A stretch of 64,000 nucleotides of DNA from Deltaproteobacteria bacterium (GTDB lineage Bacteria > Desulfobacterota > Binatia > Binatales > Binataceae), in NCBI GenBank assembly GCA_021780225.1, contig JAJXZF010000065.1, forward strand, positions 1 to 64,000, read 5' to 3'. The notes beneath the pieces were generated by a model. The model was not told the DNA's origin. It worked only from the letters and a program-made list of their open reading frames with translations, and did not search any database. The translations under genes and the position numbers were made by a program. Each line of letters starts with the position of its first letter. The first letter of the stretch is position 1. Below, in pieces: positions 26,663 to 48,577 of the stretch.

Positions 26663-26811
26663 CTCCGCTTTGCCTCCTTTGTCTGCGATTCGCCCTAACT
26701 ATCACGCCCGCCGCCGATCGCCAAAACGCGCATCGCGGCCAATTGCGAATTGACGCTTTGCGGTCCGACGATGCAAGCTTGGCCGCAATCCCATCGCCGG
26801 GCGAGGTCGCG

Positions 26812-28572
26812 ATGAACACGCTGGTTCCCACCGATGCTGAACAGAAGTTGATCGAGGCGGCGCGCAACGGCCTGCCCGCCGATCTGGGATCGGCTAACGA
26901 AGCTGAAAACGATCCCGCCAACGGCGACGGTTGGGGCCCTGCGCGCACAATTCGCGCGGAAATCATCTATGCGCTCGCGACGGGTGCGCGCGCCGATTGG
27001 CCGGTCCATCCGAAAGGAATTCAGTTGTATGGCGCGCGGATCGAAGGCCAATTTGATTTCAGCGACGCGGAGCTTCGATGTCGTTTGATACTCAAACATT
27101 GCAGCATTGAAAAGCAAATAATTTTCGATGACTCCACAACTCGCTCAATTGAATTAACCGGCAGCGTCATTGCGGGAATCGTGGCGAATCGGATGGCTGT
27201 GCGCGGTTCCTTCGTTCTTCAAAAGGTTAGGGCGGTCGGCGAGGTCAAAATTTTAGGCGCGAAAATCTCTGGCCAGTTTGATTGTGCGCAGGCTCGATTC
27301 AGCAACCGAAATGGCCCTGCGCTTATCGCGGACGGCACCAGCATTGAAGGCGGAGCGTTCCTTAACGAAGGATTCGCCGCGATTGGCATGGTCAGGTTTG
27401 GAGGGGCACGGATCGCCAATCAACTGAACTGTCGCGACGGACATTTCCGCTCCAATGCTGAGCGTGCTCCCGCACTGGCGTTGGATGGTTTGAAAGCGGA
27501 TCGGCTTCTTCTTGATCTAGGATTTAAAGCAATCGGCGAAGTCAGATTGCTAGGCGCCGAGATCCGGAGTCAATTGAGTTGCCGATGCGGTTCCTTCCAG
27601 AATCCAACGGGGTTCGCGCTATCCGCTGACGGCGCGACCATCAATGGCCATGTTTTTCTTGACGAAAAATTCGAGTCCGTTGGCGAGGTGAGATTTATCG
27701 GGGCAAGAATGTTGAAAGATATATCTTGTGAGGGCGGAAAATTTGACCATCTGAATCTCCAACGAGCTCAGGTTTCCGGAATCCTGTTCATGCGCGGGTT
27801 AACGGACGCCGCGCAGAGCCGGATCGATCTTACGCATGCACGGATTGGTCAACTGGCCGACGACCAAGCCAGTTGGCCAGCCAAGGGAAACTTCCATATC
27901 GACGGGTTTGAATACGACGCGATTGTTGAAGGTTCGCCGCGAGACGCGAAGTCACGGCTGGAATGGCTTGACCGGGCGCCAGAAAAAGGCTTTTCAACGC
28001 AACCCTACGAGCAACTCGAAAAGGTATTGCGCGCTTCCGGCGACGAACGCGGCGCGGTCGAAGTTTACATCGCGAAACGTCGCGCGATTCGGGAAAAAGG
28101 CCAGATGAGTCGGCCGGCGCGCGCATGGGATCGAACTCTCGATTGCGCCGTTGGCTACGGCTACAGGGTAGGGCGCATCTGCCTTCCGGCATCGGTCATT
28201 GTCCTTTTGGGCTCCGTTCTTTTTTGGTTGTGGTTCTATAGCGGTCAACCACCATCCGTGATCACGCCAACCGTCGTTTCGTCTTTCCAAAATGCCACAA
28301 CGGCGCATGCGGGCGATGTCATTCACACGAAACCGCCCGCGCATCCGGTTCGAGAATGCGCCAACCATGCGTTACATTCATTTTTCTATTCGCTCGAAGT
28401 TTTCCTGCCCTTCGACGGAACGCCGTGGCGGTCCAGCCCGCCGCTCTACTCACGCCATCCCGACGATTTGTGGTTTTACGCGATCGAGGCATGGTGCGTA
28501 ATCGAAGAGCTGCTCGGCTGGCTGGCCGCAGGCTTGATTGCCGCCGCCGCCGCGGGCGTGATCCAGAAATAA
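26812..28572 (+). CDS. Repeat-built membrane-anchored protein (family often labelled membrane-associated oxidoreductase; function unknown)
   Basis: The ATG at 26812 (preceded by GCGAGG) gives 586 residues. A periodic region has units starting GEVKILGA (143), GMVRFGGA (192), GEVRLLGA (242) and GEVRFIGA (291), so the period is 49-50 residues. Each unit ends with a FL-x-EGF/DEKF-like turn, and Cys recurs in QFDC, QLNC, QLSC and DISC. This suggests stacked beta-solenoid coils. Two membrane segments lie near the C-terminus (about 458-480 and 556-584). A linker of about 75 residues between them is probably outside. Base composition is lower in GC than the neighbours, hinting at transfer. Homologues are known in actinobacteria, but the name reflects no proven reaction. 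Confidence 0.75.
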   Translation: MNTLVPTDAEQKLIEAARNGLPADLGSANEAENDPANGDGWGPARTIRAEIIYALATGARADWPVHPKGIQLYGARIEGQFDFSDAELRCRLILKHCSIEKQIIFDDSTTRSIELTGSVIAGIVANRMAVRGSFVLQKVRAVGEVKILGAKISGQFDCAQARFSNRNGPALIADGTSIEGGAFLNEGFAAIGMVRFGGARIANQLNCRDGHFRSNAERAPALALDGLKADRLLLDLGFKAIGEVRLLGAEIRSQLSCRCGSFQNPTGFALSADGATINGHVFLDEKFESVGEVRFIGARMLKDISCEGGKFDHLNLQRAQVSGILFMRGLTDAAQSRIDLTHARIGQLADDQASWPAKGNFHIDGFEYDAIVEGSPRDAKSRLEWLDRAPEKGFSTQPYEQLEKVLRASGDERGAVEVYIAKRRAIREKGQMSRPARAWDRTLDCAVGYGYRVGRICLPASVIVLLGSVLFWLWFYSGQPPSVITPTVVSSFQNATTAHAGDVIHTKPPAHPVRECANHALHSFFYSLEVFLPFDGTPWRSSPPLYSRHPDDLWFYAIEAWCVIEELLGWLAAGLIAAAAAGVIQK

Positions 28573-28767
28573 CGGCGCGACGCTCTGGGGGTCGGCTTCA
28601 CATCGCGGCGCGGGGTTGCTATTAAAACGTGGCCCTGCGCGAGATCGCGTTCGCTTGCGAAAAAGCGGGCGCAATGAAATGTTCGGGTATCAGCAAGAGC
28701 GAAATCATTCAGGCGCGAATATAAGCGCGGCTCACGTCGCGCGGCGCCGGAAAATCCGGTTGGAACA

Positions 28768-33266: not shown

Positions 33267-33683
33267 ATGGAACGAACCTTCGCGATAATCAAGCCCGACG
33301 CGGTCGCCCGTCATCTGATTGGCGATATCGTCAAACGGATCGAGGCGAGCGGCCTCAAAATTGTCGGGATGCGGCTGGTGCGCCTCGCGCGCGCCGAAGC
33401 CGAAACTTTCTACGACGTCCACAAAGCACGCCCCTTCTATGGTTCACTCTGCGACTACATGACCTCCGGGCCGGTCGTCGTGATGGCGCTGGAGGGCGAC
33501 GGCGCGATCAAGCGCTGGCGCGACCTGATGGGCGCGACGGATCCGGCCAAGGCCGATCCGGGCACGATCCGGCGCGATTTTGGCCAGAACGTGGAGCAAA
33601 ACGCGACGCACGGCTCCGACGCGCCCGAGACCGCGGCCCGCGAGTTGGCTTTCTTCTTCCGCACCTCGGAATTGACCGTGTGA
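33267..33683 (+). CDS. ndk: Nucleoside diphosphate kinase
   Basis: The 138-residue protein starts [19 protein letters not shown] and has NATHGSD with the phosphorylated His115, plus [15 protein letters not shown] and [11 protein letters not shown]. It transfers the gamma phosphate of ATP to nucleoside diphosphates in the cytoplasm. The C-terminus ([13 protein letters not shown]) is normal. It is the last gene of the sucCD-ndk run and is convergent with the accessory genes on the minus strand, with only 19 bases between stop codons. Confidence 0.96.
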
Positions 33684-33702: not shown

Positions 33703-34116
33703 TCAGGCGTTTTCGAGGGCCGATCCGCCACGTTTCGCCTGTAACAGGGCCGTGTTTTCGAGTATTTTCCGATTGACCGGTTCGGTTATATCCAGCGGAA
33801 ATGCGCAGCCGTCAACTTCGATGCGAGCTTGCGTTATGAGCTTGAGCGTGACGCGGCCTCGGCTTGCGAAATGAGCAAGCATCCGTTTGTTGAGGCGGAT
33901 ATGCGTCCGCTGAGACGGTCCTGGATTTCTGTAATGAGCAGCGCGCCGCCGTAGATTGTCGGTTTCGCCGATATAGTTCGATTCGGTTGGCCCTCCCAAA
34001 AACTGAAAACAGTAAACCGCCGGCCGCGCGTCAAGATCCGGAAAGAGCAATTTTCCGGATGAATCCTGCAAAATTTCACCAACCTCTATCCATTCATAAT
34101 CAATAACCAGCTTCAT
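33703..34116 (-). CDS. GIY-YIG nuclease domain protein
   Basis: The 137-residue protein has AVY at residues 33-35 and YIG at 48-50 in ESNYIGETDNLRRRAAHYR, which also supplies the Arg (56-58) and His61 of the GIY-YIG core. The likely metal-binding Glu is Glu120 in NRKILENTALL. The first 30 residues are an extra beta-strand segment. The family cuts DNA, as in restriction enzymes, UvrC or homing nucleases. It overlaps the upstream YaaA-like/HEPN gene by four bases (ATGA), so both are translated as a unit. The DNA is visibly lower in GC than the flanking ndk and rlmN, a sign of acquisition. Confidence 0.78.
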   Translation of the reverse strand: MKLVIDYEWIEVGEILQDSSGKLLFPDLDARPAVYCFQFLGGPTESNYIGETDNLRRRAAHYRNPGPSQRTHIRLNKRMLAHFASRGRVTLKLITQARIEVDGCAFPLDITEPVNRKILENTALLQAKRGGSALENA

Positions 34117-35342
34117 CTATCCGCGAACCTCTTAATTATTTCGAACGCGATTTTGCGCGCGTCCTCCGCCTCCTCACGGGTTAATTCTCTACCGTCGCGA
34201 TGCGCGGCCCGGTTTCGAAGCTCGCACAATTGATTCAAGCGATCAGCGACTGAACTGGAGATGTCTAATTTATCCTTGCAACGAATCATACTTCCGAGCG
34301 TTTCCTTCGCGCGCCGATGATCGGTAAGTCGAAGATATCCTTCGACGGCGGTTACATAGGCGATGACGAGCGAGCGGGACGGGATATTTTTCGCACGACG
34401 CAGTTTTCTCGACAGTACCTCGGCCAGGGCCAAATCACTGCGCGTTTCTTCCGGCGTGTTTCTCAACCATTCATGCGATTCGATCAACTCGCGATTTATT
34501 ATCTCCAATTCTCCGGGAATTTCGTTCTCAAAGCGTATCTCGTCCTTAACGCCCAAATCGTACCATTGCTGCGTGGTGAATTCTTCCTCAGCGTCCGGAG
34601 CGAATCGCGCCCAATTCTTGGCCACGAGTCCGCCGAGGCCCGCAAGGAGGTCGGGTCCGTTGGTATGACGGAACACCCGATGGCGGATTTCCACATCCGT
34701 ATCTTTAAAAGCCTGCCATCTAATCGCTTTCTGGTATTCTTCTTCGGACAGCAAATCGTAGATGGTGGTAATCGGAGCCGATACCTCGTCAGCCTTCACC
34801 AGATCCTTCAGCGATTTGGTCAGAACGTCGCGCCATTTTTCGGATAGCGTGCGCTCTTTATTACCTTCCTGCAATTGCACCAAATCGCTGAAATGACAAT
34901 CGTAGTTTTGGATTAGCTCGTCCCAGAATAGCAGGCCGTATAGTGCGGACAGGAATACAATTTCGATACGACCGCCGCGTAGATGGCTCCAGAAAGTCGG
35001 CGAATCGCTAGTAAGGCGAGCGAAAAATCGACCGTTATATCGCTGGTATGCAGGCAGATAGCTTCCGTCGGCGCTGTTGGCAAAATCGGGACCCTGCGCA
35101 ATGTCGGCGTTGCATGTTCTCTCGTCGCGAAAGCCGCCCTTTTGGTCTTCGTTGTAAAGGCGTCCACCCTCTCCGCGCAAAAGCGAAAGCACCCGGTTTC
35201 GCTGATTGTGTAGAGCGTTGCGTGTCTCTCCGCTCAGCGAGTCGGAGATTTTTCGAGTTGACGGATCGAACGGCCGTCCGCCTTCGCGTTTGGCGTTGCT
35301 GCACGACAGGAGCAGTAGACTGCGTGTCTGCTTTGAGTCCAT
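34113..35342 (-). CDS. YaaA-like (DUF6884-type) domain fused to a C-terminal HEPN-like domain
   Basis: The 409-residue product has two parts. The first (about 8-245) resembles the YaaA/DUF6884 fold: LLLLSCSNAK (10-18), AYQRYNG (98-104), IVFLSALYGLLFWDELIQNYD (IVFLSALYGLL 128-138) and TIYDLLSEEEYQKAI (193-207). YaaA is a DNA-binding, peroxide-stress protein. The second (about 280-409) is all-helical and has ELRNRAAH with Arg376 and His381 in an R-x4-H motif, followed by REEAEDARKIAFEII, as in HEPN RNases or DUF4145-like domains. The gene overlaps the GIY-YIG nuclease gene. I cannot name a described system with this pair, so the assignment to defence is an inference. Confidence 0.72.
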   Translation of the reverse strand: MDSKQTRSLLLLSCSNAKREGGRPFDPSTRKISDSLSGETRNALHNQRNRVLSLLRGEGGRLYNEDQKGGFRDERTCNADIAQGPDFANSADGSYLPAYQRYNGRFFARLTSDSPTFWSHLRGGRIEIVFLSALYGLLFWDELIQNYDCHFSDLVQLQEGNKERTLSEKWRDVLTKSLKDLVKADEVSAPITTIYDLLSEEEYQKAIRWQAFKDTDVEIRHRVFRHTNGPDLLAGLGGLVAKNWARFAPDAEEEFTTQQWYDLGVKDEIRFENEIPGELEIINRELIESHEWLRNTPEETRSDLALAEVLSRKLRRAKNIPSRSLVIAYVTAVEGYLRLTDHRRAKETLGSMIRCKDKLDISSSVADRLNQLCELRNRAAHRDGRELTREEAEDARKIAFEIIKRFADR

Positions 35343-35610
35343 GATATGAAATAGTTACCACAAGAGAATATTGGCTCAAGCTTGGGACGTATGCGATTGA
35401 TCGTCGTCTGGCGGGCGGGCAGAATCCGGTGCGTAAGCTCCGACGCGCATGCGCACGTGCGCAGATCTCTATCCCTCGCCGTCCGCGCGAATCGCCCGAT
35501 CCGGACTGGCGGTCGCGCTTGCCGGATGCAACCCGGTATCAATATCGCGGGCGCGAATCGCGCATCGCCGCGCGCAAAGACGCTGCCAGCGGCTGCGCTT
35601 TTCCTCTAAA
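35343..35610. other. 268-base intergenic region before rlmN
   Basis: This is the divergent region between the accessory operon and rlmN. Near 35360-35390 the sequence is AT-rich (AATATTGGCTCAAGC), consistent with a minus-strand promoter for the YaaA-like gene, but no clear boxes stand out. The rest is GC-rich without a supported gene. Confidence 0.4.
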
Positions 35611-36735
35611 ATGGATGCGATGAACTCGGCGGCGGAAGATTTTTCAATGACGCCCGAAGCCGGAGCGCCATCGGCCGCGCGGCCCGATCTCCGCGACCTC
35701 GCGCTGGACGAACTTGAATCCGCCCTGCGCGAGTTGGGCGAGCGCTCGTATCGCGCCCGCCAAATCATGGCGTGGTTGTGGAAACGCGGCGCGGATTCCT
35801 TTGCCGCGATGCACGATCTGCCGGCCGCCCTGCGCGCGGCGCTCGCGGAGCGATTCGCGCTCGCCGCGCCGAATCCGGCCTTCGTGGCCCGCGCGGCCGA
35901 CGGCACGCGCAAGCTCCTGCTCGGCCTCGCCGACGGCGAACGGATCGAAAGCGTGATCATTCCCGCCCGCGATCGCGTCACGCTGTGCGTGTCGAGCCAG
36001 GCGGGATGTGCGATGGGCTGCGAATTCTGCGCGACCGCGCGGATGGGGCTTAGACGAAATCTCTCTGCCGGCGAAATCCTCGGCCAGATAGTCGCCGCCC
36101 GCCGCCATCTGGACCCCGAAGAGACGCTCACCAACTACGTGTTCATGGGGATGGGCGAGCCGCTCGCGAATTATCCGCGCCTGGCGCGCGCGCTCGCCGC
36201 GATGACCGCGGAGTGGGGGATGGGAATCTCGCCGCGGCGCATCACCGTCTCGACCGTCGGCCTGATTCCGGGAATGGAGCGGTTGCTGGCCGATTTCGAC
36301 GTCCACCTCGCGGTTTCGCTCCACGCCACGACCGACGAAGTGCGCGATCGCATCGCGCCGATCAACCGCCGCTTTCCGCTCGCCGATTTGATTGCGGCGT
36401 GCGCGAATCTGCCGCTCAAGCGCCGCAGCCGAATCACCTTCGAGTACGTGATGCTCGATGGCGTGAACGATTCCGACGCCGACGCCCGGCGGCTGGCGCG
36501 GATGTTGGCGCCGCTGCGCGCGAAGGTTAATTTGATCATCTTCAATCCGTTCGCGGGAGCGCCATTTCAACCTTCGCCGCGCGCGCGGGTGGAGGGCTTT
36601 CAAGCGATTCTTCATCAGGGTAACTTGACCGCAACCATCCGCGAGAGCCGCGGACGCGATATCGCGGCCGCCTGCGGCCAGCTCCGTGCGGAACGGCTGG
36701 CGGACGAGGCGGACGGGCGGTGCGCGCGGGCGTGA
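35611..36735 (+). CDS. rlmN: 23S rRNA (adenine2503-C2)-methyltransferase RlmN
   Basis: The frame is open to 35449, but the ATG at 35611 gives the usual 374 residues. It is a radical-SAM enzyme with the CxxxCxxC cluster motif AGCAMGCEFC (Cys133, 137, 140). Cys126 lies in the VTLCVSS segment, corresponding to the second conserved Cys (E. coli C118). The C-terminal AACGQL has the methyl-carrier Cys355. YVFMGMGEPLANY and VSLHATTDEVRDRI are also family signatures. It methylates C2 of A2503 in 23S rRNA and of A37 in some tRNAs. mtnP follows 10 bases later. Confidence 0.95.
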   Translation: MDAMNSAAEDFSMTPEAGAPSAARPDLRDLALDELESALRELGERSYRARQIMAWLWKRGADSFAAMHDLPAALRAALAERFALAAPNPAFVARAADGTRKLLLGLADGERIESVIIPARDRVTLCVSSQAGCAMGCEFCATARMGLRRNLSAGEILGQIVAARRHLDPEETLTNYVFMGMGEPLANYPRLARALAAMTAEWGMGISPRRITVSTVGLIPGMERLLADFDVHLAVSLHATTDEVRDRIAPINRRFPLADLIAACANLPLKRRSRITFEYVMLDGVNDSDADARRLARMLAPLRAKVNLIIFNPFAGAPFQPSPRARVEGFQAILHQGNLTATIRESRGRDIAAACGQLRAERLADEADGRCARA

Positions 36736-46264: not shown

Positions 46265-48577
46265 ATGGCCAAATCGACAACATCGGGTCGGCGTGCGGCA
46301 GCGATGGCGGTACGGGCGGAGAGCAGCTTGCGCCGCGACCCCACGGGGAGCGAGCCGGGCCGACCGTCTGATCGCGCCGACGAAGCGGCAGATGCGGCCG
46401 GCGCGTCGTCCGTAGTAGCGGAAAGCGGCGCGGAAAATCAAACCGCGCGAGCGATCGTTCCGCCCCGGCCCGAGGAGCTTGGCCCGCGCTACGACTCGCT
46501 GGTCGCATATGATTCAGATGCCGGCGGACGCGAGGCGTTGACGCTCGCCGCCGAAGACGGCGCGCTCGACGACGCTGAACTGGAACGCCGGCTCGAGGCG
46601 ATCCCCGCCGATCCGGGGGTCTATTTGCTGCGCGATCGCGCGGGCAAGGTGCTCTACGTCGGCAAGGCTAAATCGCTGCGCTCGCGAGTGCGATCGTATT
46701 TCCGGCCGGGCGGCGACGGGCGTTTTCAGGTGCGCTTCCTGATGCGCAAGGTGCGCGACTTCGAAACTCTGGTCGTGCGCAGCGAAAAAGAGGCGCTGAT
46801 CCTCGAAAACAATCTAATCAAGCAATACAAGCCGCGCTACAATATCCGGCTCAAGGACGACAAGTCATACCTGAGCGCCAAGGTGACGAACCATCCGTGG
46901 CCGCGCATCACGGTCACGCGGCGGATCGTCAAGGACGGCGGCCGCTACTTCGGGCCGTTCGGATCGGCCGACGGCCTGCGCGAAACGATCGACGTTATCC
47001 GCAAGGTCTTTCCGCTGCGCACCTGCTCGGACGCGGTGTTCCGCAACCGCGCCCGCCCCTGTATCGAATATCAAATCAAGCGCTGCCTTGGACCGTGCTG
47101 TCTGCCGGTGGATCGCGATGAATACGGACGTCATCTGCACGCGGCCGAGATGCTTCTGGAGGGCAAGAACCTCGAATTGTTGCGGGAGCTGCGCGAGCGG
47201 ATGCGGGCCCACGCCGAGCGGCTCGAATTCGAGGCGGCGGCGCGCCTGCGCGATCGCGTGCGGGCGATCGAAAAGACGGTCGAAAAGCAGACCGTGCTGC
47301 ATCACTGGGGCGGCGATCAGGACGTGTTCGGATTGTATCGCGAGGGCGGTTTTATCGAGGCGATCGTCCTGATGGTGCGCAATGGAAAGCTCAACCGCAC
47401 CCGCAGTTGGAGTTTCCAGGATCTCGAATTTTCCGACGAGGAGCTGCTGGCCGACCTGCTGACGCAGTATTACGCGGGCGCGCTGACTCCGCCTGACGAA
47501 GTGATCGCGCCGGTCGTGCTCGAAGACGCGGACGCCCGCGCCGAGCTGCTTTCGGAACGGCGTGGCCGCAAAGTCGAATTCATCGTGCCGCGGCGCGGCG
47601 AAAAGCTGCGCCTGCTGGAGATGGCGATGGAAAACGCGCGGCAGAGCTTCGCCGCGCGGCGCGACAATGAAAATACGCGCGAAAAGATGCTCGCCGAGTT
47701 GCGCGCCCGGCTGCATCTGCGCAACACGCCCAAGCGGATCGAATGCTACGACATCTCGAACCTGCAAGGCTCGATGGCGGTCGGGTCGCAGGCGACTTTC
47801 GACGAGGGCGAACCGTGCAAAGCTTTTTACCGCCGCTATCGGATTCGCACCGTCGCCGGACAGGACGACTTCGCCAGCCTCTACGAGGTCCTGAGCCGCC
47901 GGCTCAAGCGCGCGAAGGAGGAAAACGAGTATCCCGATTTGTGGGTGATCGACGGCGGCAAGGGCCAATTGAACGTGGCCGTGCAGGCGCTCAAGGACGC
48001 CGGCGCATCGGCGCAAATCGAGGTGGTGTCGCTGGCCAAGCAACACGTGCTGAACGACGGGCGCGAGCGCAACGTGGTCAAATCCGAGGAACGGGTCTTC
48101 CTGCCGAATCGCAAGGACCCGATCGTGCTGCCGCGCAACTCGAACGCATTGTTCCTGCTGGTGCGCATCCGCGACGAGGCGCATCGCTTCGCAATCACCT
48201 ATAACCGTGAATTGCGCCGGCGCGCGCGATTGAAATCGGTCCTTGACGATATTGAAGGAATCGGACCGGTGCGCCGGCGCGACCTGTTGAGACATTTCGG
48301 CAGCCTGCGGCGGATTCGCGCGGCGTCGCTTGCGGAGCTGCAGGCGGTCAAGGGCGTCAATGCGGAATTGGCGGCGCAAATCCGCCGGCATCTCGACGCG
48401 ATGGCCGCGCTGCTCGACGAGCAGGAGCGGGCCGAGCGCGAAGAGTACGGCGCGGAATATCTCGACGCGGGCCAGGGCCAGCTTGAGCTGCTCGCCCGCA
48501 AAGCCCGCCCCGCCATGGCGGCGTCAAGCGAGGCGGAAACGTCATTGGCTGATTCGGTCGAACCCGCCGACGGTTAG
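46265..48577 (+). CDS. uvrC: Excinuclease ABC subunit C with N-terminal extension
   Basis: Taking the ATG at 46265 (preceded by GCGAGGCG) gives 770 residues. The first 104 are Ala/Ser/Arg/Glu-rich and disordered-looking, and the UvrC core begins ELERRLEAIPADPGVY. The core has the GIY-YIG nuclease (VLYVGKAKSLRSRVRSYF), the UVR motif, the RNase H-like nuclease domain (ECYDISNLQG, VIDGGKGQLNVA) and a C-terminal helix-hairpin-helix (DIEGIGPVRRRDLLRHFG). UvrC makes both incisions in nucleotide excision repair. Without the extension the length is normal, so either the tail is genuine or the real start is later. comEC follows after 94 bases. Confidence 0.93.
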   Translation: MAKSTTSGRRAAAMAVRAESSLRRDPTGSEPGRPSDRADEAADAAGASSVVAESGAENQTARAIVPPRPEELGPRYDSLVAYDSDAGGREALTLAAEDGALDDAELERRLEAIPADPGVYLLRDRAGKVLYVGKAKSLRSRVRSYFRPGGDGRFQVRFLMRKVRDFETLVVRSEKEALILENNLIKQYKPRYNIRLKDDKSYLSAKVTNHPWPRITVTRRIVKDGGRYFGPFGSADGLRETIDVIRKVFPLRTCSDAVFRNRARPCIEYQIKRCLGPCCLPVDRDEYGRHLHAAEMLLEGKNLELLRELRERMRAHAERLEFEAAARLRDRVRAIEKTVEKQTVLHHWGGDQDVFGLYREGGFIEAIVLMVRNGKLNRTRSWSFQDLEFSDEELLADLLTQYYAGALTPPDEVIAPVVLEDADARAELLSERRGRKVEFIVPRRGEKLRLLEMAMENARQSFAARRDNENTREKMLAELRARLHLRNTPKRIECYDISNLQGSMAVGSQATFDEGEPCKAFYRRYRIRTVAGQDDFASLYEVLSRRLKRAKEENEYPDLWVIDGGKGQLNVAVQALKDAGASAQIEVVSLAKQHVLNDGRERNVVKSEERVFLPNRKDPIVLPRNSNALFLLVRIRDEAHRFAITYNRELRRRARLKSVLDDIEGIGPVRRRDLLRHFGSLRRIRAASLAELQAVKGVNAELAAQIRRHLDAMAALLDEQERAEREEYGAEYLDAGQGQLELLARKARPAMAASSEAETSLADSVEPADG

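Follow-up and report, generated by a model that had tools for sequence, protein, structure and literature searches.

Two overlapping genes standing among housekeeping genes (sucC, sucD, ndk and rlmN-type genes) in the 64-kb stretch of DNA analysed here, hereafter the window, raise the question of whether they act together as a defence system and, if so, what such a system would recognise. The initial annotation described two minus-strand genes that overlap by four bases, and reading of the open reading frames confirms this: frames of 409 and 137 codons, for the proteins P0001 and P0002, share bases 34113-34116 (ATGA), and the residue numbers R376, H381 and E120 are correct as given. The features of the module and its flanks are the following:

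33267-33683, plus strand: ndk, left flank of the module insertion
33703-34116, minus strand: P0002, 137 aa, GIY-YIG nuclease of a T4 EndoII-like subfamily
33757-33759, minus strand: E120 of P0002, predicted catalytic glutamate
33964-33975, minus strand: YIGE of P0002, residues 48-51
34113-35342, minus strand: P0001, 409 aa, with a YaaA/DUF6884-type domain and, at the C-terminus, a HEPN-like domain
34119-34259, minus strand: HEPN-like stretch of P0001, best profile match at residues 362-408, below cut-offs
34200-34217, minus strand: RNRAAH of P0001, residues 376-381, predicted HEPN RNase motif
34686-35078, minus strand: PF03883 (YaaA) match in P0001, residues 89-219
34935-34952, minus strand: LSAxxG motif of P0001, residues 131-136
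35289-35303, minus strand: CxxxK motif of P0001, residues 14-18
35396-35558, plus strand: remnant of a ytcA-like gene, adjoining the module
35449-36735, plus strand: ORF containing rlmN, right flank, with the true rlmN start further inside the ORF

The gene on the right flank is presumably rlmN, judged by its sequence.

The composition of the module sets it apart from its surroundings. Its G+C content is 53.0% versus 62.8% for the window, and only 2 of 624 sliding windows of module length are equally low, both lying on the module. Third-position G+C is 0.59 in P0001 and 0.54 in P0002, compared with 0.79-0.83 in sucC, sucD, ndk and rlmN. Scans of the locus for promoters and terminators gave results at chance level only, no Rfam family was found there, and a search for repeats yielded nothing remarkable. 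The stretch 26800-28700 is the sole other part of the window with 1640-base windows below 56% G+C.

Comparison of the interval downstream of ndk in seven genomes of the genus places the module at a site of changing content. The module occupies it in G000, a gene for a 344-aa protein in G031, G028 and G029, and a truncated copy of that gene in G032; in G027 and G030, rlmN follows ndk after gaps of under 200 and under 100 bases, respectively (starts read by eye). Within the stretch examined, rlmN was not seen in G029 and G032. The ytcA-like gene is whole in G028, G029 and G032 and present only as a remnant in G000. This differing content indicates that the interval exchanges cargo, and the module, judged from sequence, looks like low-G+C cargo newly inserted at a variable site between housekeeping genes.

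To our knowledge, no molecular function has been established for YaaA/UPF0246 and DUF6884 proteins. P0001 scores 44.9 bits against the Pfam profile PF03883 (YaaA; cut-off 29.6) and stays far under the cut-offs of the NCBIfam YaaA equivalog models, which makes it a member of the YaaA superfamily and not YaaA itself. Its score against DUF6884 (PF21818) is 16.3 bits, below the cut-off of 30, though both motifs described for DUF6884, CxxxK and LSAxxG (PMC11701544), are present; the earlier assignment to a YaaA/DUF6884 type is thus upheld. Nine residues (C14, K18, Y102, G104, S132, A133, Y135, G136 and Y147) are common to P0001 and three YaaA-like proteins from other genomes that were picked with PF03883. 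The profile of these four sequences matched a single PDB sequence, that of E. coli YaaA (5caj, 3.8e-7), which is a standalone chromosomal stress protein, whereas P0001 adds the CxxxK motif and a HEPN-like domain. An HMM of nine DUF6884/YaaA-like domains, built without P0001 although a profile that included it had served to pick out some of these domains, gave P0001 35.3 bits, as against 6.3 for the best of 1000 shuffles.

The C-terminal HEPN-like domain with an R-x4-H motif, also proposed beforehand, is likewise upheld. One C-terminal stretch of P0001 matches HEPN_RiboL-PSP (25.9 bits, cut-off 28.4), DUF4145 (21.9, cut-off 23.1) and HEPN (14.6, cut-off 22), in each case below the cut-off. Active HEPN RNases are characterised by R-x4-6-H with a polar residue after the arginine, together with Ex3[KR] (PMC3710099), and P0001 contains R376-N377-x3-H381 and E334-x3-R338. 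The single-sequence model of P0001, of low confidence (mean pLDDT 40), has helices at residues 322-408.

P0002 alone reaches 14.0 bits against the GIY-YIG profile PF01541, below the cut-off of 22.6, so that its assignment, which agrees with the initial annotation, rests on its family and its model. Relatives were found with one degenerate pattern, consisting of the YIG motif and the following Y..PG..Q.T stretch, in genome contigs of 84,980 species; it gave 46 loci, each of which resembles P0002 with tblastn E <= 7.2e-10 when 54 loci are searched. Pfam GIY-YIG is matched at E <= 0.001 by 7 of the 46. The alignment A4 comprises P0002 and 37 relatives, the other nine being cut short, masked, overlong or poorly aligned. 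Eight residues (G50, E51, R58, Y62, P65, G66, Q69 and T71) are invariant in it because the search pattern required them; outside the pattern, Y48, R116 and N136 show no variation, and conservation is at least 90% for W9, P26, Y35 and E120. The tyrosines, arginine, glutamate and asparagine expected of a catalytic site are found as Y35, Y48, R58 (part of the search pattern), E120 and N136. The model of P0002 has a mean pLDDT of 97.3, and Foldseek ranks 1-9 are all taken by GIY-YIG nucleases, namely T4 EndoII, Hpy188I and UvrC, with E values from 4.9e-4 to 0.23, of which two are at E <= 0.001. The closest fold, in a structure mutated at E118, is that of T4 endonuclease II (DenA), which is matched by the P0002-family sequence profile as well (2e-5) and is a phage enzyme not known to have a YaaA or HEPN partner. 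Among viruses, no relative of P0002 was found in phages at E<=0.1, nor by two scans of viral sequences and a pattern search; viral contigs gave one short relative (L008, 36% over residues 29-85), and 1 of 72,556 plasmid records holds a relative. A further P0002 profile, A3, had matches in 132 of 395 genomes of the phylum, with at most ten candidates scored per genome; these reach 30.8 bits at best, compared with 144.7 for the window, and were rejected as members and read as UvrC-like since they lie mostly in frames of more than 500 codons, as UvrC would give.

A DUF7662 domain is fused in 19 of the 46 relatives and is thus a frequent N-terminal partner of the P0002 GIY-YIG subfamily (L002:5210-5905; 19 of the loci L009-L054); no paper on DUF7662 was found in the open-access full text searched.

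The exact P0001-P0002 pair was seen once. None of the 46 loci of P0002 relatives holds a relative of P0001 (0.9-8 kb examined per locus; best chance match E 0.07), and in 148 genomes of the class P0001 occurs only in the window's own. The 395 genomes of the phylum added one match, in G443 (6.2e-4, 30% over 101 residues, one internal stop), which lies opposite a 434-codon ORF and was read as chance. P0001 was not found in the 39 genomes holding P0002 relatives, nor in 385 genomes from the class to which the Thalassospira genome G534 belongs, two sets that contained no genome known to match. Relatives of P0001 were found neither in plasmids at E<=1, nor in phages at E<=1e-5, nor in viral contigs by peptide patterns, a DNA pattern or alignment. 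Because P0002 relatives occur without P0001, the pair is, within the range of these searches, not conserved as a two-gene system. The initial annotation had named separate homologues in advance as an argument against it, and this is in part what was found. Domain precedents exist in PDC-M57A and, more weakly, in DpdC.

What recurs is the link between the kinds of domain. Among 143 genomes of the class, 6 gave a match to a YaaA-type profile (A5), including the window and one genome that had supplied a profile row. Another of the 6 is G028, which alone of the seven genomes of the genus encodes a 381-aa protein in which GIY_YIG_2 (102.7 bits, residues 69-214) is followed by DUF6884 (152.9 bits, residues 232-359). 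Thirty-one bases away lies a 205-aa ORF with the motif RNQAIH and a DUF4145 score of 21.5 (below the cut-off of 23.1); as this ORF is convergent, it does not form one operon with the fusion gene (both at L119:633-2427). The three domain types of the module are therefore found together, rearranged, in a related genome. On a Rhodococcus plasmid, the 440-aa protein WP_258913978.1 (L127:3683-5005) consists of a DUF7662-like N-terminus, then DUF6884, then GIY-YIG, domains that were assigned by blastp and HMM comparisons; its DUF7662-like part resembles P0002-family members (blastp up to 2.6e-9), and 3 of 72,556 plasmid records, from Rhodococcus, contain the fusion at 97% of its length. The opposite order of GIY-YIG and DUF6884 in these two proteins suggests separate joining events. 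Both proteins resemble the module in joining GIY-YIG with a YaaA/DUF6884-type domain, in G028 next to a HEPN-like ORF, and differ from it in being single proteins with another GIY-YIG subfamily, a domain nearer to DUF6884 proper and no fused HEPN. Since P0002 and the GIY_YIG_2 domain of the fusion show no resemblance by blastp, the link is one between kinds of domain and not between orthologues. The G028 fusion matched 85 plasmid records, at least 80% of it being covered in 1, and many of the matches are to DUF6884 without GIY-YIG.

Further evidence comes from the company that DUF6884 keeps. On a Variovorax plasmid, a DUF6884 gene overlaps dpdB by four bases next to type I-E cas genes (L130:4961-6528), and dpdB lies beneath the DUF6884 match in 4 plasmid records. 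In a Tolypothrix plasmid protein (L128:3386-4804), DUF6884 follows a DpdA-like stretch resembling the solved DNA-guanine transglycosylase 7ui4 (6.9e-7); these Tolypothrix rows had at first been taken for fusions of GIY-YIG and DUF6884, a reading dropped because the N-terminus is transglycosylase-like instead. In PADLOC, the DUF6884 domain of G028 scores strongly against PDC-M57A (132.9 bits), a model that covers this domain, and weakly against DpdC (26.4 bits), the protein that completes a 7-deazaguanine in DNA. The overlap with dpdB and the transglycosylase-like fusion tie DUF6884 to altered DNA bases, and this company, PADLOC scores included, speaks for a function on unusual bases in DNA. 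The likeness of the module to the Dpd system has its limits: no dpd gene was recognised among the module's neighbours, P0001 gave no match to the PADLOC DpdC models, and its match to PDC-M57A is weak (15 bits, E 0.0058). A base-handling role would accord with the model of Pfam's authors, in which the DUF6884 protein YfjM flips a base into its pocket (PMC11701544).

The surroundings of P0002 relatives were also inspected. Of 78 listed neighbour ORFs, 76 were scanned; PADLOC AbiEii was found in 2, and one ORF each matched Pfam AbiTii, a C5 methylase and a helicase; the remaining Pfam families listed, 25 of 41, are mostly metabolic, transport or regulatory. These counts are not claimed as an enrichment. 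On two Rhizobium plasmids, Shedu and AbiGi genes adjoin a more distant, HTH-bearing relative of P0002. At L035:2953-5512, a P0002 relative adjoins a C5 DNA methylase gene, possibly as a restriction-modification pair.

We tentatively read P0001-P0002 as a mobile defence (conflict) module against foreign DNA, a reading that we hold at somewhat short of an even chance. The apparent foreign origin, the predicted active-site residues and the recurring domain link are taken from the sequence, and sensing, partnership and protection are what we infer. In such a module, the YaaA-type domain of P0001 would bind DNA and read a non-canonical base, whether of the 7-deazaguanine type, otherwise modified or damaged, and the CxxxK/LSAxxG pocket would probably take up this base once flipped out. 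Recognition would guide P0002 to make a nick or a cut in that DNA, and the HEPN domain would cut RNA, halting the cell if the attack continues, so that one sensor would serve two nucleases. More specifically, and with considerably more doubt, the module may be a defence that depends on DNA modification: a YaaA-fold sensor of the DUF6884/DpdC kind, recognising a modified base such as 7-deazaguanine in invading DNA, would direct the GIY-YIG DNase and the HEPN RNase. It would then mirror Dpd modification on the restriction side and have been put together more than once by shuffling of YaaA/DUF6884, DUF7662, GIY-YIG and HEPN parts. The links with GIY-YIG and with dpdB and the transglycosylase-like part lead to the testable idea that the YaaA fold reads or handles unusual DNA bases, which, if true, would account for PDC-M57A as a candidate defence domain and be relevant to the role of YaaA.

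The two nuclease folds have precedents in defence. PF18735 HEPN and GIY-YIG are each used by tested E. coli defence systems, namely PD-T4-3 and PD-lambda-1 (GIY-YIG) and PD-T4-2, PD-T4-5, PD-T7-3 and ApeA (HEPN), none of which is listed there with both folds (PMC10952713). The initial annotation could name no described system for the pair, and neither can we: open-access full text on YaaA with GIY-YIG, HEPN or anti-phage, on GIY-YIG with HEPN and abortive infection, and on DUF6884 yielded no such system, P0002 matches no PADLOC model, and P0001 has no PADLOC system match beyond PDC-M57A. The defence-like make-up then proposed is supported only indirectly, by the mobile context, the defence genes near some P0002 relatives and the GIY-YIG/DUF6884 fusions, and weakened by the lack of conservation of the pair. 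Also against defence are the HEPN scores below cut-offs in both P0001 and the G028 ORF, the poor P0001 model, the draft state of the genome and the finding that no defence gene flanks the module within the window.

The main rival, which we consider fairly unlikely, is a module for stress or repair: the YaaA-type domain would bind DNA that is damaged, the GIY-YIG enzyme would make the incision in the manner of UvrC, and the HEPN-like part would merely hold the parts together. YaaA has been co-purified with double-stranded DNA and reduces mutation (PMC4834066), proteins binding abasic or RNA-base lesions include B. subtilis YfjM (PMC11701544), and UvrC is among the folds closest to P0002. However, the module is sporadic and foreign, with its low G+C and variable site, the HEPN motif residues are present, DUF6884 and P0002 relatives occur on plasmids, and the window already has a separate UvrC-like GIY-YIG match of its own at 46598-46720. 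Less probable again is an orphan restriction-like endonuclease, with P0002 comparable to Hpy188I and with P0001 overlapping it by chance as a gene independent of it. The 46 relatives without P0001, the one beside a C5 DNA methylase gene and the place of Hpy188I in the top nine folds would suit this explanation, which is countered by the ATGA overlap and by single proteins elsewhere that join GIY-YIG and DUF6884; moreover, no DNA methyltransferase gene was recognised next to or near the module on reading the ORFs of 30-40 kb.

HEPN toxins are common in toxin-antitoxin pairs, and P0001 has a weak match to the HepT model (12.9 bits, E 0.077). We nonetheless find such an arrangement, with P0001 as the HEPN toxin and P0002 as antitoxin or partner, very unlikely, since P0002 retains its nuclease residues and the module has no partner of antitoxin or nucleotidyltransferase type. 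Scarcely credible is a decaying remnant without function, as suggested by the ytcA-like remnant beside the module and the truncated gene at the same site in G032, given that both frames are full length with predicted catalytic residues.

The 344-aa gene that stands beside ndk at the module's place in other genomes (L107:415-1449, minus strand; L108:1963-2997, plus strand; L104 and L106) matched nothing significantly in Pfam, PADLOC or the PDB. It contains a conserved D...EAK stretch that, by eye and without library support, reads as PD-(D/E)XK-like.
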